A DNA stretch of 64,000 nt, from the NCBI RefSeq assembly GCF_020907245.1, contig NZ_JAJJWH010000011.1:62001-126000 (forward strand). Direction: 5' to 3'. Source of the DNA: Pontibacter harenae. GTDB taxonomy: Bacteria; Bacteroidota; Bacteroidia; Cytophagales; Hymenobacteraceae. The translations under genes and the position numbers were made by a program. The stretch's first letter is position 1. Each line of letters opens with the position of its first letter. Below the pieces are notes generated by a model, which was given only the letters and a program-made list of their open reading frames with translations, was not told where the DNA came from and made no database searches. Positions 37,088 to 47,268 of this stretch are shown piece by piece.

Positions 37088-37095
37088 TACCTTTG
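37088..37095 (+). promoter_or_regulatory. Promoter of the cysH operon
   Basis: TACCTTTG matches TAnnTTTG and lies 36 bp before the SAM riboswitch, so transcription would begin just ahead of the P1 helix. A TTTT word at 37064-37067, 20 nt upstream, is a weak -33 candidate. The 36491-37087 stretch before it has no gene; it contains only the dispersed repeat at 36697. Confidence 0.6.
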
Positions 37096-37130: not shown

Positions 37131-37234
37131 AAATTTATAAAGAAGAGGCGAGAGACTAGGCTCCATGACCCTCTGGCAACCACCAGTTTGGAAGGTGCCA
37201 AGTCCTATCCCGAACAGTCGGGACATATAAATTT
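37131..37234 (+). ncRNA. SAM-I (S-box) riboswitch upstream of cysH
   Basis: A 9-bp P1 helix is formed by AAATTTATA (37131-37139) and TATAAATTT (37226-37234). Inside it are the SAM-I core words GGCAACC and GGTGCCAAGTCCT, a P2 pairing of AGAGG with CCTCT, and a P4 hairpin CCCGA/TCGGG (37209-37213 with 37218-37222). SAM binding stabilises P1. The leader peptide ATG is 10 nt after P1, so the 3' strand of P1 sits next to its translation start. A second, closely similar riboswitch lies at 47129-47232 on the other strand, before the sulfite reductase. Confidence 0.88.
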
Positions 37235-37243
37235 GAAAACGCA

Positions 37244-37384
37244 ATGCAAACGACCGTAAACACATCGACATCAGTTTCAGGCAGTAGTACTTCTACTTCC
37301 TCTCCTCTATTTTCTTATTTTGCAGCTACTGATGCCGCCTTCAAACAAAGGCTTGTGTGTTGTTGTTGCTGTTGCAAATTTTAG
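37244..37384 (+). CDS. Polycysteine leader peptide of the cysH operon
   Basis: This 46-codon ORF starts at an ATG 10 nt after the riboswitch P1 helix. It is rich in Ser and Thr, and near its end has six consecutive cysteine codons (TGT TGT TGT TGC TGT TGC) followed only by Lys, Phe and TAG. Such a codon run is the hallmark of a ribosome-sensed attenuator: low charged cysteinyl-tRNA would stall the ribosome there. A 9-bp hairpin (37388-37415) follows directly after the stop and could be the switchable structure. The gene 218 bp downstream is cysH. The same design occurs before the sulfite reductase (47009-47125). It is too short to be a normal enzyme or structural protein. Confidence 0.82.
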   Translation: MQTTVNTSTSVSGSSTSTSSPLFSYFAATDAAFKQRLVCCCCCCKF

Positions 37385-37602: not shown

Positions 37603-38322
37603 ATGAGCAATTTACCAGCTTTAGAAACAAAAATACCAGCGCTCCTTGAAGCTTTGGAAGGCCTTTCTATTGAAGATAGCCTACGCCTGCTGGCAAAAGA
37701 ATTCGAAGGCTCTATTGCCTTCTCTTCCAGCCTTGGCATCGAAGACCAACTGATTACGCATTATATCTTTTCTAACGATATACCTGTTCGTGTTTTCACA
37801 TTGGACACAGGCCGTCTTTTTAACGAGACATACAACCTGCTGAACAGAACTAACAGCCGCTACGATAAGCGCATTCAGGTATACTTTCCGAAGAATGAGG
37901 CGGTGGAAAAACTGCTGACCGAGAAAGGTCCGTTGAGCTTTTACCAGTCTTTGGAAGATAGAAAAGAGTGCTGCTTTATTCGTAAAGTAGAGCCGTTGAA
38001 GCGTGCGCTGAAAGGTGTGCAGCTGTGGGTAACAGGTATTCGTGCCGACCAATCGGATGCGCGCCAAAGCCTGCAACTGCTTGAGTGGGATGAAGGTAAC
38101 CAACTTATCAAGTATAACCCGCTCCTGCACTGGACGCTGGATGAAGTTAGAGCCGCTATCAAAAAAGACAACGTACCGTATAACCCGCTGCACGATAAAG
38201 GCTTTATAAGTATAGGTTGCGCCCCTTGCACCCGCGCTGTTCGCGAAGGCGACGACTTTAGAGCAGGTCGCTGGTGGTGGGAAGATACTTCTAAAAAAGA
38301 GTGCGGCTTACACGCGAGTTAA
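37603..38322 (+). CDS. cysH: Adenylyl-sulfate (APS) reductase, iron-sulfur type
   Basis: The 239-residue protein has the PAPS/APS reductase fold (AFSSSLGIEDQLI P-loop-like start, TLDTGRLFNETY). The [4Fe-4S] cysteines of the assimilatory APS-reductase branch are Cys123-Cys124 (KECC) and Cys206/Cys209 (GCAPC). The catalytic cysteine is Cys234 in KKECGLH. It reduces APS to sulfite with thioredoxin, which fits the absence of an APS kinase (CysC) in the cluster. It is the first structural gene after the SAM riboswitch and cysteine leader. Confidence 0.93.
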   Translation: MSNLPALETKIPALLEALEGLSIEDSLRLLAKEFEGSIAFSSSLGIEDQLITHYIFSNDIPVRVFTLDTGRLFNETYNLLNRTNSRYDKRIQVYFPKNEAVEKLLTEKGPLSFYQSLEDRKECCFIRKVEPLKRALKGVQLWVTGIRADQSDARQSLQLLEWDEGNQLIKYNPLLHWTLDEVRAAIKKDNVPYNPLHDKGFISIGCAPCTRAVREGDDFRAGRWWWEDTSKKECGLHAS

Positions 38323-38426: not shown

Positions 38427-39335
38427 ATGACTAAAAGATATCTCGATTACCTGGATCAACTGGAGGCAGAGGCCATACACATTATGCGTGAGGTGGCAGG
38501 GCAGTTTGAGAAACCAGCGCTGCTGTTCTCAGGCGGTAAAGACTCCATCACCCTGGTACGACTGGCAGAGAAGGCCTTCCGCCCTGGCAAATTCCCATTT
38601 CCACTGGTGCACATAGACACAGGCCATAACTTTCCTGAAGCTATTGCTTACCGCGATGAACTGGCTGAGCGCCTGGGTGAAAAGTTGGTTGTGCGCAACG
38701 TAGAAGACACGATCAAACGCCAGAACCTGACCGAGCCAAAAGGCAAATATGCCAGCCGCAACGGACTTCAAACCTATACTTTGCTCGAAACGATAGAGGA
38801 ATTCGGTTTTGATGCCTGTATAGGCGGTGCTCGCCGCGACGAAGAAAAGGCCCGAGCCAAAGAACGCATCTTCTCGGTGCGCGACGAATTTGGCCAGTGG
38901 GACCCGAAACTGCAGCGCCCAGAACTATGGAACATCTATAACGGGCACATCCACAAAGGTGAGAATGTGCGTGTGTTCCCAATTAGTAACTGGACGGAGC
39001 TAGACGTTTGGAATTACATCAAGCGTGAGGAAATTGCCCTGCCGAACATCTACTTCACACACGAGCGTGAGTGTTTAGTACGCGACAACAAGCTGATGGC
39101 CTGGTCTGATTTTATACACAAAGATCCAGAAGATGTGGTGATCAAGCGTCAGGTGCGTTTCCGTACTGTAGGCGACATGACCTGTACTGCCGCCGTTGAG
39201 TCTGTCGCTTTCGACATCGATAGCGTGATAGCCGAAATCATCGAATCAAAAATAAGCGAACGCGGTGCCACCCGCATAGACGACAAGCTGTCTGAAACCG
39301 CAATGGAAGACCGTAAAAAAGGAGGATACTTTTAA
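38427..39335 (+). CDS. cysD: Sulfate adenylyltransferase subunit 2
   Basis: The 302-residue protein has the ATP-pyrophosphatase motif LLFSGGKDSITLVRLAEKAF at about 31-50 and the family signatures VHIDTGHNFPEA and CIGGARRDEEKARAKERIFS. With CysN it makes APS from ATP and sulfate in the cytoplasm. Its stop is 1 bp before the cysN start, indicating coupled expression. Confidence 0.97.
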   Translation: MTKRYLDYLDQLEAEAIHIMREVAGQFEKPALLFSGGKDSITLVRLAEKAFRPGKFPFPLVHIDTGHNFPEAIAYRDELAERLGEKLVVRNVEDTIKRQNLTEPKGKYASRNGLQTYTLLETIEEFGFDACIGGARRDEEKARAKERIFSVRDEFGQWDPKLQRPELWNIYNGHIHKGENVRVFPISNWTELDVWNYIKREEIALPNIYFTHERECLVRDNKLMAWSDFIHKDPEDVVIKRQVRFRTVGDMTCTAAVESVAFDIDSVIAEIIESKISERGATRIDDKLSETAMEDRKKGGYF

Positions 39336-39336
39336 C

Positions 39337-40614
39337 ATGGATATACTTAGATTTATTACCGCTGGTAGCGTAGACGATGGTAAAAGTACCCTGATCGGCC
39401 GACTGCTGTACGACACAAAGCAGATTTTTGCCGATCAACTAGAGGCAATAGAGCAATCTGGCCGCCTGAACGAGAGCGGAGAGGTTGACCTTTCTTTGCT
39501 AACCGACGGTCTGAAGGCCGAGCGTGAGCAAGGTATTACGATTGATGTGGCTTACAAGTACTTCAACACTGAGAAGCGTAAGTTTATTATTGCTGATGCC
39601 CCTGGCCATATTCAGTATACCCGCAACATGGTAACAGGTGCCTCCAATTCTAACCTTTCCATTATTCTGGTTGATGCTCGTAAAGGAGTGCAGGAGCAAA
39701 CACGCCGCCACTCCATCATATCATCGCTGCTGGGAATTCCGCACCTGGTTATCTGCATCAATAAAATGGATTTGGTGGGTTTCGATGAAGCTGTTTACAA
39801 TAAAATTGTAGAAGATTACAAGCTCTTCGCGCAGAAGCTGAACGCCAAAGACATCCAGTTTATACCTGTTAGCGCCCTCAAAGGCGATAACATTGTAGAG
39901 AAATCTACGGCTATGGACTGGTACAGCGGACCTAGCCTGCTGGAGCACCTGGAGCAGGTACCTGTTTCTTCTGATATCAACTTAGAAAATGCCCGTTTCC
40001 CTGTGCAGTACGTTATTCGCCCTCACACTACAGAATACCACGACTACCGTGGCTATGCTGGTAAAGTAATCAGCGGTGTGTATAAAAAAGGCGATAAAGT
40101 AGTGGTACAGCCATCTGGCCAGACATCAACTATCAAATCTGTACAATTAGGCGGCAAAGAACTGGAAGAAGCTTTTGCACCCATGTCGGTTGTAGTGCAA
40201 CTAGAAGACGCTGTAGATATCAGCCGTGGAGATGTGCTTGTAAAGCAAGAGGATGAACTGGAGACAACACAGGAATTTGAAGCATTACTATGCTGGATGG
40301 CTACCAAGCCACTGAAGCCTGGTGCTAAGCTGCTGCTTCGTCACAACTCTACAGACTCTCGTGCTGTTGTGAGAGAGATCATGTATAAAGTAGATGTAAA
40401 TGCGCTGGAAGATGTTCAGGACGTAGACCAGGTACAGCTTAACGACATCTGCTGTGTCCGCATCCGTACTGCCACTCCTCTCCTGCTCGATAAGTACGAG
40501 GACAACCGCTCAAATGGAGGCTTTATATTAGTAGACGAAATTTCTTTCACTACTGTAGGCGCAGGTATGGTAACCAGCACCGTAGACGAGAGCAAACTCA
40601 GCTACATGATTTAA
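39337..40614 (+). CDS. cysN: Sulfate adenylyltransferase subunit 1 (GTPase), without CysC domain
   Basis: The 425-residue protein is an EF-Tu-like GTPase: GSVDDGKSTLIGRLLYD P-loop at about 8-24, switch DAPGHIQYTRNM at about 86, NKMD at about 141-144, then two beta-barrel domains. It powers APS formation by CysD through GTP hydrolysis. The length shows it is CysN alone, with no APS-kinase fusion, matching the APS-type CysH. Confidence 0.96.
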   Translation: MDILRFITAGSVDDGKSTLIGRLLYDTKQIFADQLEAIEQSGRLNESGEVDLSLLTDGLKAEREQGITIDVAYKYFNTEKRKFIIADAPGHIQYTRNMVTGASNSNLSIILVDARKGVQEQTRRHSIISSLLGIPHLVICINKMDLVGFDEAVYNKIVEDYKLFAQKLNAKDIQFIPVSALKGDNIVEKSTAMDWYSGPSLLEHLEQVPVSSDINLENARFPVQYVIRPHTTEYHDYRGYAGKVISGVYKKGDKVVVQPSGQTSTIKSVQLGGKELEEAFAPMSVVVQLEDAVDISRGDVLVKQEDELETTQEFEALLCWMATKPLKPGAKLLLRHNSTDSRAVVREIMYKVDVNALEDVQDVDQVQLNDICCVRIRTATPLLLDKYEDNRSNGGFILVDEISFTTVGAGMVTSTVDESKLSYMI

Positions 40615-41502: not shown

Positions 41503-42672
41503 TTACACCTTTGCCAAAGCCTGTGTAATATCCTCAATAATATCTGCCACATTTTCCAAACCAACCGACACCCGAATCAGACCAGGCGTAATACCTGTTG
41601 CCTGTCGCTCTTCTTCTGTTAGCTTAGAATGTGTGGTAGAGGCAGGATGCGTAACAATAGAACGGGTATCGCCTAAGTTAGAAGTAATGCTCAGCATCTG
41701 CAGGTTATCAATAAATCGCTTAGCTGCATCGTAGCCACCTTTTACGGCAAACGTTACGATACCACCACCAGCTTTCATCTGCTTTTTAGCCAGCTCATAC
41801 TGCGGGAACGACGGCAGGAACGGATAGCGCACAAACTCCAGCGCCTCGTTATTTTCCAGCGTCTGCGCCAGCTTCAGTGCATTTTCGCAATGCTTCTCTA
41901 CACGCAGCGATAGCGTTTCAAGACTCTTAGAAATAACCCAAGCATTAAACGGTGACATGGCAGGACCAGTATGGCGAGAGAAGAAACGAATCTCCTCAAT
42001 CAAGTCTTTTCTACCTACCACAATACCGCCCAACACGCGCCCCTGCCCATCCATATACTTCGTAGCAGAATGTACAACTAAGTCAGTGCCGTAATCTATT
42101 GGCGTTTGCAGAATTGGGGTGGCAAAGCAGTTGTCCACCACCACAATCAGGTCATGCTTGCGCTTCAGCTCTCCAATAAACTCCAGATCAATCAGCTCCA
42201 ACCCAGGGTTAGAGGGTGTCTCGATTAAAATCATTTTCGTTTCTGGCTTGATCAGGCTTTCCCAGGTTTCGGGTGCGCTGGCATCGGCATACGAATGGGT
42301 AATACCCCACTTCGAGAACACGCGTGTTAACAACTGGTGCGTTGAGCCAAACACCGCACGAGCCGAAAGCACATGGTCGCCTGACTTTAGCAGTGCCGCC
42401 ATACTAGCAAAAACGGCAGCCATGCCAGAAGAAAAAGCAAAGCCGTCTTCCGCTTTTTCCAAGAAACATACTTTTTCCAGCAACTCATCCACATTAGGAT
42501 TTGAGTAGCGGGAGTAAATGCTTCCCTCCTCTTCATCGGCGAAAACAGCTCTTGCCTGCTCAGCATCTTCAAATAAAAAGCTGGAGGTTAAATATAAAGG
42601 CACCGAGTGCTCGCGGTTTTGCGAACGCTGCGCCTGTAGTCGTATGGCTTGGGTTTCTTTATTATCCGACAC
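41503..42672 (-). CDS. metZ: O-succinylhomoserine sulfhydrylase-like PLP enzyme
   Basis: The 389-residue protein belongs to the Cys/Met-metabolism PLP family: SRYSNPNVDELLEKV, FSSGMAAVFASM, ETPSNPGLELID, and PLP lysine Lys205 in VVHSATKYMDGQGRVLGG. The G-QGRVLGG-IV context is typical of MetZ sulfhydrylases, which make homocysteine directly from sulfide and an acylated homoserine. That fits its place between the sulfate reduction genes. A cystathionine-synthase or gamma-lyase role cannot be fully excluded. A consensus -7 word is at 42737-42744. Confidence 0.85.
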   Translation of the reverse strand: MSDNKETQAIRLQAQRSQNREHSVPLYLTSSFLFEDAEQARAVFADEEEGSIYSRYSNPNVDELLEKVCFLEKAEDGFAFSSGMAAVFASMAALLKSGDHVLSARAVFGSTHQLLTRVFSKWGITHSYADASAPETWESLIKPETKMILIETPSNPGLELIDLEFIGELKRKHDLIVVVDNCFATPILQTPIDYGTDLVVHSATKYMDGQGRVLGGIVVGRKDLIEEIRFFSRHTGPAMSPFNAWVISKSLETLSLRVEKHCENALKLAQTLENNEALEFVRYPFLPSFPQYELAKKQMKAGGGIVTFAVKGGYDAAKRFIDNLQMLSITSNLGDTRSIVTHPASTTHSKLTEEERQATGITPGLIRVSVGLENVADIIEDITQALAKV

Positions 42673-42858: not shown

Positions 42859-44391
42859 CTATACAAACGCCATAAAGATAAGGCGCAGGCTCATCACAAT
42901 AACAACCAAACCTACGATAATCATCATAGTTTTGATAGGCAACCTCCTGGCAAGCATAGCACCAAGCGGAGCCGAAATTGTTCCACCTAACACCAGACCC
43001 AGTATAACCTGCCAATGCGAAAGTCCTGTCAGTGAAATAAAGGTAATAGAACTGGCGATAGAGACAAAGAATTCCGCCAGGTTAACCGAACCGATGGTGT
43101 ACATTGGGTGACGACCTTTGGCAATAAGCGTAGAAGAAACAATCGGCCCCCAGCCACCACCACCAATGGCATCAAAGAAACCACCAGCGGTCGCTAAAGG
43201 TCCCAGCCTTTTGATCGGGCTCTTCTTTACCCTCTTACGGAGCGTTTTTCGGATAATCAGAATACCCAGGAACAACGTATAGCAGGCTACAATCGGCTTG
43301 ATGATGTAAAGGTATTCCTCTAAGGCAAAAAGCATGTATGCCCCAACTATGGCTCCCAGTATACCAGGTATCAGCAGCGACTTGAAAAGCTTGCTGTTCA
43401 CATTGCCGAACTTGAGGTGCATCAGGCCTGAAGCGCCCGAGGTGAAGATTTCGGAAGCGTGAACGCTGGCACTTGCAAAAACAGGGCTCACGCCGAAACT
43501 CAGCAGAAAAGTAGTCGCACTCACACCATAAGCCATTCCCAGTGCACCATCTATCAACTGCGCCACAAAACCAGCTGCAATATATACCAGTATCTCCGAA
43601 TCAATTTCATAGAAACGATCCAGCGCATAATTTCCGATAGTCTCGAACGGAATGTAGCTGAACAGCAGGTGGCCAGTTATCATTAAAGCCAGCGCAGCCA
43701 AACTAATCAGCAGTGTCCATTTCACACTGAACCGCTTCCTAGGCTTAGGCTTCGCCTCTACTGGCGCTACCATCGTTTGGGTAATCTCGTTCAGCTTTTT
43801 TACTTTGAAAGCAAAATCGCCTGCCAGTCCTGCACGTATCTGCGTCAGGTTATCCAGCACCTGCTCTATCTCCTCAGGAAAAGTCTCGTTCAGCGTTTCT
43901 TTGATGCGCTTGGCAACTGTCGGGGATTTACCGTTGGTAGAAATAGCTAGCTTCAGGCTGCCCTTCTGCACAATAGAACCCAAATAAAAATCGCATTGCA
44001 GCGGTGTGTCGGCTACGTTAGTGAGTATTTTCTTGGCTTTTGCCAGAGCTTTAACCCTAATGTTTACTTCGTGGTCGTCGGTTGCAACCAGTACAATATC
44101 TTTGTCCTGCAGGTCCTCTTCTTGAAACTCCCGCTGTACCAATACTAAACCAGGGTGCTTGGCCGTCAGAGCAAAAATCTCTTCCTTAATAAGAGGGGCA
44201 ACTACTGTAACAGCAGCTTTGGGGCTATTACCTAGTACAGCAGTTAATTTCTCAAGCCCTACATTACCACCACCCACAACCAGAGTCTGCAATTCTTCTA
44301 GCTTCAGAAAAACAGGGAACAGCGGGTTAAACTGCTGTTTGGGTTCAGCAGCGGCAGGTTGAACGGTTGATATTTGTTGCGTAGTAGTCAT
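42859..44391 (-). CDS. Precorrin-2 dehydrogenase (siroheme) - TSUP/TauE permease fusion
   Basis: The 510-residue product has two unrelated halves. Residues about 20-190 are the CysG N-terminal / Met8-like precorrin-2 dehydrogenase: the Rossmann motif GGGNVG at 40-45, VATDDHEVN, and ISTNGKSPTVAKRIKETL in the dimerisation part. After a basic linker (about 211-222), residues about 224-510 are a TauE/SafE (TSUP) membrane permease with about 8-9 helices (GALGMAYGVSATTFLLSFGV; GGGGWGPIVSSTLI). It would link siroheme formation, needed by the neighbouring sulfite reductase, to transport of sulfate, sulfite or an organosulfonate at the inner membrane. The gene lies 171 bp downstream of the sulfite reductase, after a terminator-like hairpin. 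Confidence 0.88.
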   Translation of the reverse strand: MTTTQQISTVQPAAAEPKQQFNPLFPVFLKLEELQTLVVGGGNVGLEKLTAVLGNSPKAAVTVVAPLIKEEIFALTAKHPGLVLVQREFQEEDLQDKDIVLVATDDHEVNIRVKALAKAKKILTNVADTPLQCDFYLGSIVQKGSLKLAISTNGKSPTVAKRIKETLNETFPEEIEQVLDNLTQIRAGLAGDFAFKVKKLNEITQTMVAPVEAKPKPRKRFSVKWTLLISLAALALMITGHLLFSYIPFETIGNYALDRFYEIDSEILVYIAAGFVAQLIDGALGMAYGVSATTFLLSFGVSPVFASASVHASEIFTSGASGLMHLKFGNVNSKLFKSLLIPGILGAIVGAYMLFALEEYLYIIKPIVACYTLFLGILIIRKTLRKRVKKSPIKRLGPLATAGGFFDAIGGGGWGPIVSSTLIAKGRHPMYTIGSVNLAEFFVSIASSITFISLTGLSHWQVILGLVLGGTISAPLGAMLARRLPIKTMMIIVGLVVIVMSLRLIFMAFV

Positions 44392-44562: not shown

Positions 44563-46695
44563 TTATGCTTCGTACTTAAGCGGTTGTGGTGCTGGTTTGC
44601 CCAGTTCCTCTTGTCTGTATCTGCTTGCCTCGTGCAGGAACAACTGCGACTGGCTCAGGTACTCTTTTGCAAACGCATCGGTAGGCTCGTTTTGGTTTAG
44701 CTGCAGCACAACGCTCTTGAAGTCAGGCTCAAACTTAAAGATACCTTCCGCTACATAATTTGTATCAAAGTCGTTGATGATGCCGCTCTGCGTGTTACAC
44801 TTCACGTTTTTGTCAAGCAACAACGCTTTTGCTGTGCTGATGAAAGCAGTATAGCTGTGGTAAATCGCATCGGCAAAACGCTTATCTGCAAAGGCTTCTT
44901 CTGCCCACTCCAGCTTCTCATCTGATTCAAACAATAGCGTAGCAACCAGGTCAATCATTACACCCGCACACTCGCCTACACCAATTGCTGTAGCAAACTC
45001 CTCTTGGTGGCCCCAGTCAACGAAGTCTTCTGGTGCAAGGGTAGTCAGGTCTGCCAACGGCTTTAACAGTTGGTAGAAGTGGTCTTTGCCTTGTCTGTCG
45101 TAATAGGCATAGAACTTCTCGCCTTCCTGCTTGTTCTCGTTATAGTCGTTGATCACGTAGCGCAGCACATCTATACCTCGCTTGCTTGGAACCTTGATCA
45201 CTTTGTTCGCGATGCGGCCTTCGCCATTGCCCAGCGTACCGCCGCCAACCAACACCTGCAGTGCTGGCAACACGTTTTTACCGTTCTTGATAGAAGAACC
45301 GTGGAAACCCAAATCTGCCATACCATGTTGACCGCAGGAGTTCATACAGCCACTGATCTTGATTTTAATGTCGCGGTTAAACAGCAACTCAGGATACTCC
45401 TGTACCACCACGTTCTCCAGCACTTTTGTAAAGTTGGTGCTGTTAGAGATACCCAGGTTACAAGTATCAGTACCAGGGCAAGTCGTGATGTCAGCCACGC
45501 TGTTGAAGCCAGGCTCTGCCAAACCAAGTACATCCAACTCAGCAAAAACGTAAGGCAACGCCTCTTCTCTTACACATTTCAGCAACAGGTTTTGGCTCTG
45601 CGTTACACGTAGTTCGTCGGCTGCAAAGTTTTTCACCAACGGTGCCAGTTTTCTGGCTGTCACGCTGCTGATGTCGCCAATCGGAATTTTAAGGTAAACA
45701 CCATAGTAGCCTTCCTGCTTCTGCTTGAATACATTCGTTTTCAGCCAAGTGTTATACTTATCGGTATCCTCAATTATATAATCAGGAATTTCCTGTGGCG
45801 CAGGGATAGCAGGTGTATAGTCTTTTGTTTTATCAACCTGGAAAGAGTGTACTTTAAAAGCTTTCGCCTCCTCTTCTACTAAGCGCATCACTTCTTCTTT
45901 CCCGAATTTGTTCATCAGGTACTTGAAACGAGCTTTGTTACGGTTGTTGCGTTCGCCGTAGCGATCGAAGATGCGGATTACACCTTCCATGAAAGGTATA
46001 AACTGGTCTTCTGGCAGGAACTCGTAAGCCACCTCGGCCAGCACAGGCTGTGCGCCCAAACCGCCGCCAAGCATTACTTTAAAGCCACGCTCTAGTTTGC
46101 CATTCACTTCACGCACTTTGGCAATGTAGCCAATATCGTGCATGTAGGCCATGGCAGTGTCGCTGTCGCTTGAGGAGAAGGAAACCTTAAACTTACGGCC
46201 CATGTCCTGGCAAATCGGGTTACGCAGGAAATATTCGAAGGCTGCATCGGCATAAGGCGACACGTCGAAAGGCTCATTCGGGTCTACACCTGCCTCTGGC
46301 GAAGCTGTGATGTTACGCACAGTGTTACCGCAGGCCTCACGCAGTGTAATATCGTCCTGCTCCAGTTTTGCCCACAATTCAGGTGTTCTGTCCAGGCTCA
46401 CAAAGTGAATCTGTATGTCCTGGCGCGTAGTCAGGTGCAGGTTACCTGTTGAGTATTCGTCTGAAATATCTGAAATTCTGAGCAACTGCTTTGTGGTCAG
46501 TCTGCCAAAAGGGAGCTTGATGCGCACCATCTGCACCCCTTGCTGGCGCTGTCCGTAAACACCGCGAGCCAGGCGCAGGCTCTTGAATTTATCTTCTTGT
46601 AATTTACCCTCGCGGAAAAGACGAATCTTTCGCTCCAGGTCAATTATATCTTTCTCTACCAGAGGATTTTCTAATTCAGTTCTAAAACTTTGCAT
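44563..46695 (-). CDS. HEPN-tailed nitrite/sulfite reductase (siroheme, ferredoxin type)
   Basis: The 710-residue protein has the duplicated siroheme reductase fold: two ferrodoxin-like/NIR-SIR units (MVRIKLPFGRLTTKQL; YYGVYLKIPIGDISS). The [4Fe-4S]-siroheme cysteines are Cys406, Cys412, Cys450 and Cys454 (TTCPGTDTC and GCMNSCGQH). A C-terminal extension of about 130 residues (from about 570; SYTAFISTAKALLL) matches the HEPN tail seen in Bacteroidota members. Context (CysH, CysDN, SAM riboswitch, cysteine leader) says sulfite is the substrate, although nitrite reduction is chemically possible. It is the first structural gene behind the 47009-47232 control module. Confidence 0.9.
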   Translation of the reverse strand: MQSFRTELENPLVEKDIIDLERKIRLFREGKLQEDKFKSLRLARGVYGQRQQGVQMVRIKLPFGRLTTKQLLRISDISDEYSTGNLHLTTRQDIQIHFVSLDRTPELWAKLEQDDITLREACGNTVRNITASPEAGVDPNEPFDVSPYADAAFEYFLRNPICQDMGRKFKVSFSSSDSDTAMAYMHDIGYIAKVREVNGKLERGFKVMLGGGLGAQPVLAEVAYEFLPEDQFIPFMEGVIRIFDRYGERNNRNKARFKYLMNKFGKEEVMRLVEEEAKAFKVHSFQVDKTKDYTPAIPAPQEIPDYIIEDTDKYNTWLKTNVFKQKQEGYYGVYLKIPIGDISSVTARKLAPLVKNFAADELRVTQSQNLLLKCVREEALPYVFAELDVLGLAEPGFNSVADITTCPGTDTCNLGISNSTNFTKVLENVVVQEYPELLFNRDIKIKISGCMNSCGQHGMADLGFHGSSIKNGKNVLPALQVLVGGGTLGNGEGRIANKVIKVPSKRGIDVLRYVINDYNENKQEGEKFYAYYDRQGKDHFYQLLKPLADLTTLAPEDFVDWGHQEEFATAIGVGECAGVMIDLVATLLFESDEKLEWAEEAFADKRFADAIYHSYTAFISTAKALLLDKNVKCNTQSGIINDFDTNYVAEGIFKFEPDFKSVVLQLNQNEPTDAFAKEYLSQSQLFLHEASRYRQEELGKPAPQPLKYEA

Positions 46696-47008
46696 TGTTA
46701 TTTAAATAAAGTCTGGATCTATAGTTTAATTACCTGATATCGCCCTAACAGCACATCAGGTACAATTATATATTAACAGCTACACGCCCTGTAAAAACAC
46801 GAGGAGCATGAGTAAGGTATAAAAAGGAAGTAAAACAATTTATTATAATATACATGGGCTGTTGCTTGTTCACCTTGCTTTGTTCTGGTACCGCTAATAT
46901 GGCGCTGCAAAATGCTTGGTGTGGGTGATCTAGTTTGAAACTGGTTATGTCTGGCTGTCTCAGTACTTATAATTAAACGCGACAACAGACCGTGAGGAAA
47001 TTACTTCC
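46696..47008. other. Long leader region between polycysteine ORF and sulfite reductase
   Basis: The 313-nt untranslated stretch of the minus-strand transcript should hold the switchable part of the leader. A segment at 46857-46870 has the plus-strand sequence GGCTGTTGCTTGTT, so the mRNA there is complementary, with one bulge, to part of the cysteine-codon run. A TTG-initiated open frame (46773-46985) happens to end with four cysteines in its last 11 residues. No classical stem plus T-run terminator was found by eye. Confidence 0.45.
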
Positions 47009-47125
47009 TTAACAACAGCAACAACAGCATGTAAGGTATCCTGTGGCAGGAAGTGCCACGGATAAACGAGTAGAGGTTGGTAACCCTGTGATGTATATGG
47101 AGCCTCTTGAGTTGTTCATGGTCAT
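47009..47125 (-). CDS. Polycysteine leader peptide of the sulfite reductase operon
   Basis: This 38-codon ORF starts at an ATG 4 nt after the riboswitch P1 helix (a second in-frame ATG is at 47119). It ends with six consecutive cysteine codons (TGC TGT TGT TGC TGT TGT) directly before TAA. Apart from the cysteine run, its sequence (MTMNNSRGSIYITG...) is unlike the cysH leader, as expected if only the codon run is selected. By analogy with amino-acid leader peptides, including polycysteine leaders known from mycobacteria, ribosome stalling on these codons would report cysteine supply and allow expression of the sulfite reductase 313 nt downstream. Confidence 0.83.
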   Translation of the reverse strand: MTMNNSRGSIYITGLPTSTRLSVALPATGYLTCCCCCC

Positions 47126-47128
47126 TTT

Positions 47129-47232
47129 ATTTATATTCCCCGAAATTGGTTTGGGCAGGAGTTGGCACCTTTCCAAAGGATGGTTGCCAGAGGGTCGCGG
47201 AGCCTGTTCTCTCGTCTCTTCTTTATAAATTT
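47129..47232 (-). ncRNA. SAM-I (S-box) riboswitch upstream of sulfite reductase
   Basis: On the minus strand the P1 arms are AAATTTATA (47232-47224) and TATAAAT (47135-47129). Between them are the core words AGAAGAGACGAGAGA, GGCTCC, CCTCTGGCAACC and GGTGCCAACTCCT, matching the copy at 37131-37234 in order and spacing. The apical parts differ, as in independently evolving riboswitches. The leader ATG begins 4 nt after P1, so SAM-stabilised P1 would lie against the leader start codon. Confidence 0.88.
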
Positions 47233-47260: not shown

Positions 47261-47268
47261 CAAAATTA
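47261..47268 (-). promoter_or_regulatory. Promoter of the sulfite reductase operon
   Basis: The minus strand reads TAATTTTG, an exact TAnnTTTG match 29 bp before the riboswitch. It is directly abutted upstream by the palindrome at 47270-47287. Confidence 0.6.

Follow-up and report, generated by a model that had tools for sequence, protein, structure and literature searches.

Two leader modules upstream of sulfur genes

The window analysed here, a stretch of 64,000 nucleotides from Pontibacter harenae, harbors two SAM-I aptamers located upstream, in cis, of sulfur genes, namely a sulfite reductase and, 10 kb off on the opposite strand, a cysH/D/N-like operon whose elements follow the same order (Table 1; assignments from Pfam, which was run for seven genes of the window). 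The RF00162 model matched 47231-47128 (minus) with 74.4 bits (E 1.4e-15; gathering score 44.4) in the sulfite reductase copy, and the cysH copy reached 73.3 bits. Each aptamer is preceded by the motif TAnnTTTG, which we take to be the Bacteroidota promoter consensus, and followed after 2-10 nt by a short leader ORF with a run of six cysteine codons. The designations cysD-like and cysN-like are presumptive and come from family knowledge. An earlier note on this DNA had described the sulfite reductase module as SAM-I, six-Cys leader, TAA, 313 nt and gene, all of which are present as described; the riboswitch lies where it was placed (47232-47129), with the coordinates shifted by one nucleotide. 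Its designation as an independent second copy agrees with the sequence divergence of the two modules, yet both share one family-wide architecture.

Table 1. Features of the sulfite reductase module and the cysH module (positions in the window)
Feature	Position	Strand	Remark
TAnnTTTG (TAATTTTG), -7-like promoter motif	47261..47268	-	upstream of the aptamer of the sulfite reductase copy
SAM-I (S-box) aptamer, sulfite reductase leader	47128..47231	-	RF00162
P1 3' strand, overlapping the proposed adenine-rich ribosome-entry region of the leader ORF	47128..47135	-	context rule from the available part of PMC6847099
Leader ORF, 38 codons counted from the first ATG	47009..47125	-	translates as MTMNNSRGSIYITGLPTSTRLSVALPATGYLTCCCCCC
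Six consecutive Cys codons directly 5' of the stop	47012..47029	-	TAA at 47011-47009
313-nt gap from leader stop to sulfite reductase ATG	46696..47008	-	ATG at 46695
Sulfite/nitrite reductase (NIR_SIR), regulated gene	44563..46695	-	Pfam PF01077, 1.4e-50
Siroheme-synthase-like NAD-binding domain fused to TauE/SafE sulfite exporter	42859..44391	-	Pfam
Cys/Met PLP-dependent enzyme	41503..42672	-	Pfam PF01053, 2.7e-133
TAnnTTTG (TACCTTTG), promoter motif, cysH module	37088..37095	+	
SAM-I aptamer, cysH module	37132..37233	+	RF00162
Leader ORF, cysH module, 46 codons	37244..37384	+	C-terminus CCCCCCKF
Six consecutive Cys codons, cysH module	37358..37375	+	
PAPS/APS reductase domain protein (cysH)	37603..38322	+	Pfam PF01507, 6.8e-48
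Second PAPS_reduct-domain protein (presumably cysD-like)	38427..39335	+	Pfam
GTP_EFTU protein (presumably cysN-like)	39337..40614	+	Pfam

In the sulfite reductase leader, the ATG located 2 nt past the aptamer is followed by a second, in-frame ATG at +8 (47119). The 38-codon frame of the earlier note is present, but most relatives start at about +8/+9, which makes the second ATG the likelier start, so that the real ORF probably comprises 36 codons; Pontibacter sulfite reductase leaders mostly begin with MN-. No local expression platform was found for the sulfite reductase itself, whose start is 432 nt away from an aptamer that the leader ATG follows after 2 (or 8) nt, and the start of the leader ORF appears to act as the SAM-I platform. 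As in a classical attenuator, this short ORF carries codons for the product of the pathway, i.e. six Cys codons before a sulfite reductase. A further Rfam family was not detected in the leader (best match C0719 on the other strand, sub-threshold with 15.7 bits against 50). As a side observation on the enzyme, the C-terminal stretch of the sulfite reductase (44563-46695) matches HEPN below threshold (20.7 bits, cut-off 22).

In the assembly (87.65% complete) four SAM-I sites were found, two of them with a six-Cys leader. The metH site of this genome has no leader ORF with a Cys run. At the O-acetylhomoserine sulfhydrylase site (L001, G000:C99:78229-78339, minus) a 51-codon leader ORF is present without the Cys run of its relatives.

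Association of Cys-codon runs with one class of SAM-I aptamers

Five consecutive TGY codons occur in four overlapping matches in the window, compared with 0.04 expected, and all four lie at the two modules. Genome-wide there are 19 overlapping matches in 4.85 Mb, including these four, and two in the backwards control. SAM-I is present in 59 of 60 genomes of the family, and 133 of at least 150 sites were read. They fall into two classes according to the P1 helix, an A-type (TTTATA/TATAAA, 3' end TATAAR) and a G-type (CTTATC/GATAAG). A leader ORF with CCC within its last 14 residues follows 66 of 82 A-type and one of 51 G-type sites (Fisher 2.9e-21, a test that ignores relatedness and is applied to a split derived from the same data). 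Under a looser rule (CCC, or two or more Cys among the final eight residues) the counts are 77/82 and 3/51. In L210, the sole G-type site with CCC, the 5' arm is of the A-type. CCC is missing at 16 of the 82 A-type sites, five of which, including the O-acetylhomoserine sulfhydrylase site of this genome, do not even have two Cys among the final eight residues. Runs of at least three identical residues in 97 A-type ORFs are composed of Cys in 62 cases, of Ala in seven and of Leu in six.

The two classes precede different genes, as read from translations outside the window: O-acetylhomoserine sulfhydrylase, cysH, sulfite reductase, permease, ATP-grasp, SusC-like and other genes for the A-type, and metH, homoserine dehydrogenase-like genes and some PLP enzymes for the G-type. 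TAnnTTTG occurs in the 65 nt that precede the aptamer at 53 A-type sites out of 82, compared with 3.1 in shuffles, and at 12 of 51 G-type sites. The module of the window belongs to a large family, with many relatives in which SAM-I directly precedes a Cys-ended tiny gene.

Distribution among relatives

In named Pontibacter and Botryobacter genomes, all 11 sulfite reductase loci combine SAM-I (model search) with a polycysteine leader. Among the best-scoring loci fetched from the genus, a CCC leader was present in 30 of 30 (24 of them new, six repeating sites of the 133), which were found with an A-type aptamer model and are thus biased to the A-type. The claim that the co-occurrence of riboswitch and leader argues for function is borne out by the contrast between the P1 classes, and the enrichment of polycysteine ORFs behind SAM-I, whose absence would have spoken against it, is evident there as well as in the named and the genus loci. 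Across the phylum sample the A-type model matches SAM-I-like sites in 235 of 296 genomes, a count of aptamers and not of modules. Two or more consecutive Cys codons mark a leader ORF in 16 of the 30 loci fetched from this sample; the 16 include the cysH site of the window (L216) and a leader in an implausible frame (L217). These leaders belong to families f1, f2, f4 and f8, of which f4 and f8 lie outside the order. In Mucilaginibacter limnophilus (L061) the module is located before an O-acetylhomoserine sulfhydrylase gene.

Some sites deviate from the common plan. Six aptamers (L018, L026, L119, L151, L194, L209), approximately 92-93 nt long in five cases, seemingly lack the P4 hairpin (GGTGCCAATTCCTGACCATATAAAAA), and their leaders start with GTG. 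Pairs of divergent SAM-I sites about 270-315 nt apart are found in five genomes of the genus (G361:C4:400050/400480, G360:C17:1227395/1227797, G371:C5:292692/293093, G374:C1:1221529/1221914, G363:C2:361177/361584). A G-type site before O-acetylhomoserine sulfhydrylase (L240) has six consecutive TGY codons 187 nt past the model match, and a leader start was looked for near its P1 and none was seen.

Start geometry and initiation context

Start codons were sought between -6 and +25 relative to P1 for leaders that have two or more Cys among their final 14 residues, which gave 116 distinct Cys-tailed ORFs. The ORF begins at +1 to +12 in 112 of them, most commonly at +9 (59/116), so that there is no room for a local terminator or platform between aptamer and ORF. 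ATG serves as start codon in 82 leaders, GTG in 26 and TTG in eight. Adenine is frequent upstream of the start, at -12 (85%), -13 (79%), -14 (70%), -8 (71%), -6 (66%) and -3 (48%). In Flavobacterium johnsoniae, according to the part of the study available, initiation is promoted by adenines at -3, -6, -12 and -13, and there is little pairing between -20 and +20 (PMC6847099). For a start at +9, the P1 3' strand spans about -12 to -18 and would therefore hold the adenines at -12 to -14 that favour SD-less initiation. Judged from this arrangement, a ribosome entering the leader should have to compete with the closure of P1, which is the best-supported step of the mechanism proposed below. The P1 strand, not considered in this role in the earlier note, appears to be the ribosome-entry region of the leader and, as such, the likeliest link between both sensors. 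In SAM-free folds P1 is part of the minimum-energy structure of the short sulfite reductase stretch and not of the cysH stretch, and the P1 3' strand is mostly unpaired in the 200-nt ensembles (0.92 and 0.94).

Codon content of the leader peptides

The longest Cys run per leader varies from one to eight in the 116 leaders. The last Cys is the final residue in 84 of them and lies no further than two residues from the stop in 110; the control codons are thus located at or next to the stop, as in Rho-dependent (tna-like) attenuators. The tails differ with the regulated gene. Among the non-Cys residues of the last 22 positions, Met accounts for 13.0% in O-acetylhomoserine sulfhydrylase leaders (45 non-redundant) and for 4.3% in the others (57), and its share in the first parts of the former is 1.3% (a tail is exemplified by MRTPMCAMRCCCC). 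The codons thereby fit the pathway: Cys codons head sulfate reduction genes, and Met joins Cys where homocysteine synthesis follows. Outside the tail of Cys codons, substitutions in 39 pairs fall almost equally on the three codon positions (165/172/201), which suggests little coding constraint on the peptide body, as would be expected of a sensor ORF.

A second cluster of at least three Cys codons is present in long leaders (10 of 76, compared with 1.3 expected from shuffles). It is located 227-243 nt past the leader stop in L034, L036, L039 and L041, and 205-210 nt past it in L130, L132, L137, L155, L156 and L158. It possibly marks a second leader ORF.

Sulfite reductase leaders without SAM-I

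In the leaders of 69 other sulfite reductase loci, from Mucilaginibacter and its neighbours, the model search found no SAM-I; its two matches among these loci (L058, L061) are located at other genes. A short ORF with CC and any of the three start codons lies within 260 nt of the gene in 46 of the 69, a count that comes without a chance level, and an ATG-initiated ORF with CCC within 1 kb upstream in 12. In forty of the 69, picked by eye for a visible leader or terminator, the gene is immediately preceded by a terminator whose hairpin has a median of -14.6 kcal/mol; its presence in 40 of 40 is due to this selection. Their upstream segments pair with the terminator arm better than shuffles do (mean z -1.76), and the antiterminator swap control is weak (own partner -14.6 vs others' -12.9 kcal/mol on average, ranks 0 to 38). 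No Rfam family was detected for these attenuators in five loci of three genera. The SAM-less Cys leaders (L045-L113; mostly Mucilaginibacter, further Chitinophaga and Parapedobacter) are found about 150 nt upstream of the sulfite reductase and, with the intrinsic terminator in the selected loci, represent candidates for a classical cysteine attenuator. Their occurrence supports the view that the reading of Cys codons would be an old control of sulfite reductase, to which the riboswitch was added or from which it was lost.

Readout between leader and gene

The signal of the leader has to reach a gene start that is 313 nt from the leader stop in the window. The earlier note had proposed that a downstream segment (46857-46870) complementary to the Cys-codon run could be the switch partner. 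This was not confirmed, and Cys-run pairing was rejected as a general switch: the run pairs with the downstream leader no better than z about -0.8 in the sulfite reductase copy and 0.0 in the cysH copy, and the fold of the whole region, suggested as a check, was no better than shuffles (z -0.96). The 69 leaders tested show a weak excess (mean z -0.73 vs controls -0.24 and -0.32). The strongest values come from a set of O-acetylhomoserine sulfhydrylase leaders that are close relatives of each other (z -3.1 to -5.2). Single leaders elsewhere also stand out, for instance L036 (-3.9) and L043 (-3.1) among ten Pontibacter-type sulfite reductase leaders (mean -0.98). According to these predictions, Cys-run pairing may exist in some leaders.

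Terminator-like hairpins below -8 kcal/mol are moderately enriched in A-type leaders (59/76, compared with 47% of shuffles). A good terminator was not found before the sulfite reductase of the window, where the best hairpin with U-tract has -7.5 kcal/mol, and the cysH copy has one candidate of -14.1 kcal/mol 140 nt before the gene. Several permease leaders carry strong terminator-like hairpins about 40 nt before the gene. Furthermore, the leaders are pyrimidine-rich and C-skewed (0.144 in 76 leaders from several genera vs 0.064 in 69 control upstream regions, which stem from Pontibacter and Botryobacter only; p 6e-4). Both properties are compatible with Rho, of which C-skew is a weak indicator.

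Consensus folds of the O-acetylhomoserine sulfhydrylase leaders of the genus contain one short hairpin, 24-44 nt past the stop, and are otherwise weak. Its cells pair in 85.2% vs 77.9% in shuffles and its covariation score is 0.266 vs 0.158 (0/500 shuffles as high in either case). Two further counts, those on which relatedness has the least bearing, are unremarkable for this hairpin, namely three double-change pairs (reached by 129/500 shuffles) and nine further pair types (95/500).

The signal might alternatively be read at the level of translation, with the stalled ribosome breaking a helix and thereby unmasking the downstream gene start, as reported for mycobacterial polycysteine ORFs. Translation attenuation of Cys genes in M. 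smegmatis is cited in the accessible parts of the sources (PMC13236596, PMC9031893), and in a group of ten O-acetylhomoserine sulfhydrylase leaders the gene start is closely preceded by a conserved hairpin, and the Cys run possibly pairs; pairing between leader end and gene start, a candidate that was rejected, is however not in excess (mean z +0.16, 76 leaders) and the 313-nt distance in the window is likewise unfavourable, which renders a translational readout a tentative and rather doubtful alternative. Premature termination of transcription, which may depend on Rho or be intrinsic according to the group, seems to us more probable than a masked gene start.

A proposed serial two-input regulator

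The sulfur genes are probably controlled by two signals, SAM and cysteine, that act in series on one RNA. The anatomy of the modules, the class-wide association, the start geometry and context, and the codon tuning are observed; SAM gating, stalling and the AND logic are what we infer to connect them. In the proposed mechanism, the P1 3' strand of the aptamer would be the adenine-rich stretch at which the SD-less ribosome engages the leader ORF. Binding of SAM would close P1 and block translation of the leader, and low SAM would open it. An entering ribosome would proceed to the terminal Cys run and thereby gauge charged tRNA-Cys, and in the O-acetylhomoserine sulfhydrylase leaders the Met codons would be gauged as well. 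At low cysteine the ribosome would stall at the leader end and the sulfur operon would be expressed. Plenty of cysteine (release of the ribosome) or plenty of SAM (no ribosome) would both leave the operon OFF. The AND logic is deduced from the latter case, because the state without a ribosome must be OFF if SAM represses biosynthesis. That SAM-I gates the Cys leader in this way, with expression if SAM and cysteine are both low, is in our judgement fairly likely. Several results weigh against it: the missing good terminator before the sulfite reductase of the window, the moderate enrichment of hairpins in A-type leaders, the weakness of C-skew as a sign of Rho, the A-type sites devoid of CCC, the low coding constraint on the peptide body, and the SAM-free folds with their mostly unpaired P1 3' strand.

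Riboswitch and Cys leader could instead act on the gene in parallel and independently of each other, with the closeness of P1 and start being a matter of compaction. Tandem independent attenuators exist in the Salmonella mgtCBR leader, to judge from the portion of that study at hand (PMC3641672), and, to go by the Mucilaginibacter-type leaders, SAM-I may be dispensable for a working Cys leader. We nevertheless regard parallel control as unlikely, given that the start is located at +1 to +12 of P1 in 112 of 116 leaders with a mode of +9, that the adenines of the start region are bases of P1, and that a separate local SAM platform has no space between P1 and the ORF, a long-range one being possible. 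It is highly improbable that the Cys-rich peptide itself acts, be it in metal or redox binding or as a small secreted protein: six adjacent Cys could conceivably bind metal, but the body is hardly conserved, the run varies from one to eight, the last Cys lies at most two residues from the stop in 110 of 116 leaders, and the leaders of a methionine-pathway gene contain additional Met. Chance or expansion of TGY repeats by slippage near riboswitches, for which the TGY x5 matches elsewhere in the genome might be quoted, can practically be dismissed in view of the 0.04 matches expected in the window, the 66/82 vs 1/51 split by P1 class and the in-frame position of the run relative to a P1-proximal start in successive leaders.

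It appears on balance probable that we are dealing with an old Bacteroidota regulon, characterized by SAM-I aptamers without a gene-level platform, a P1 helix that is the ribosome-entry site of the leader, a serial AND gate and tails tuned to the respective gene.

Relation to known systems

Polycysteine leaders are known and so are pairs of riboswitch and uORF. Among the full-text matches listed, in which subscription papers are thinly covered, no title or beginning of an abstract reported a SAM-I riboswitch that feeds a Cys-codon leader. Polycysteine leader ORFs of mycobacteria have reportedly been described by Canestrari et al. in 2020. In Actinobacteria, leaders with Cys runs precede cys operons without a conserved terminator, and Rho was suggested (Seliverstov et al. 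2005, PMC1262725, available in part); cysteine-responsive attenuation in mycobacteria is cited in the consulted sections of PMC13236596 and PMC9031893. These ORFs resemble ours in being short, with a Cys run near the stop, and in heading cys operons. They differ, as far as the partial sources tell, in that no riboswitch is described and that the mycobacterial start is leaderless. Here the start follows a few nucleotides after SAM-I, the phylum is another one and some leaders add Met codons. A leaderless 5'-AUG would not apply to our ORFs, since aptamer and promoter motif are located upstream.

Other systems share single aspects of the arrangement, each compared on the basis of excerpts of the respective paper. 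In the B12 riboswitches of M. tuberculosis metE and ppe2, riboswitch and translated uORF jointly set expression, maybe with Rho, but the ligand is B12 and the excerpt describes no amino-acid-sensing uORF, whereas here the uORF starts at the P1 strand (PMC11260477). The Salmonella mgtCBR leader likewise has two sensors on one RNA, one of them an ORF rich in codons for one amino acid, but its signals, ATP and proline, are independent and additive and no SAM aptamer is involved (PMC3641672). SAM is integrated with a tRNA-charging signal, the uncharged initiator tRNA (tRNA-fMet), in Xanthomonas SAM-I, whose expression platform binds the tRNA directly without a leader peptide being described in the text available (PMC7270179). 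The metA riboswitch of Sinorhizobium combines SAM sensing with an upstream AUG and controls translation at a distance, but it is a SAM-II type, no Cys-codon ORF is described in the part available and the start used is AUG2 (PMC9373788). In Rhodobacterales, uORFC-8-2 of cysS is a tandem-Cys leader ORF with predicted ribosome-mediated attenuation; it differs by the lack of a riboswitch, an intrinsic terminator and the regulation of a tRNA synthetase gene (PMC8632094). Within the Bacteroidota, attenuation by leader peptides is mentioned for amino acid operons in transcriptomics of F. psychrophilum (PMC9723704, excerpt).

Implications

The family points to a large set of ORFs of 24-58 codons, a kind that is easily missed in annotation. 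The split of the P1 classes provides a natural control for experiments, with the direct SAM-I sites before metH as counterpart of the leader-bearing ones. If the proposed mechanism is true, the riboswitch would decide on the entry of a ribosome, and this ribosome would be the second sensor, so that RNA and ribosome alone would form a serial logic gate. It would furthermore provide a testable account of aptamer strands serving SD-less Bacteroidota as sites of ribosome entry, and it would explain the control of sulfate assimilation in this lineage.
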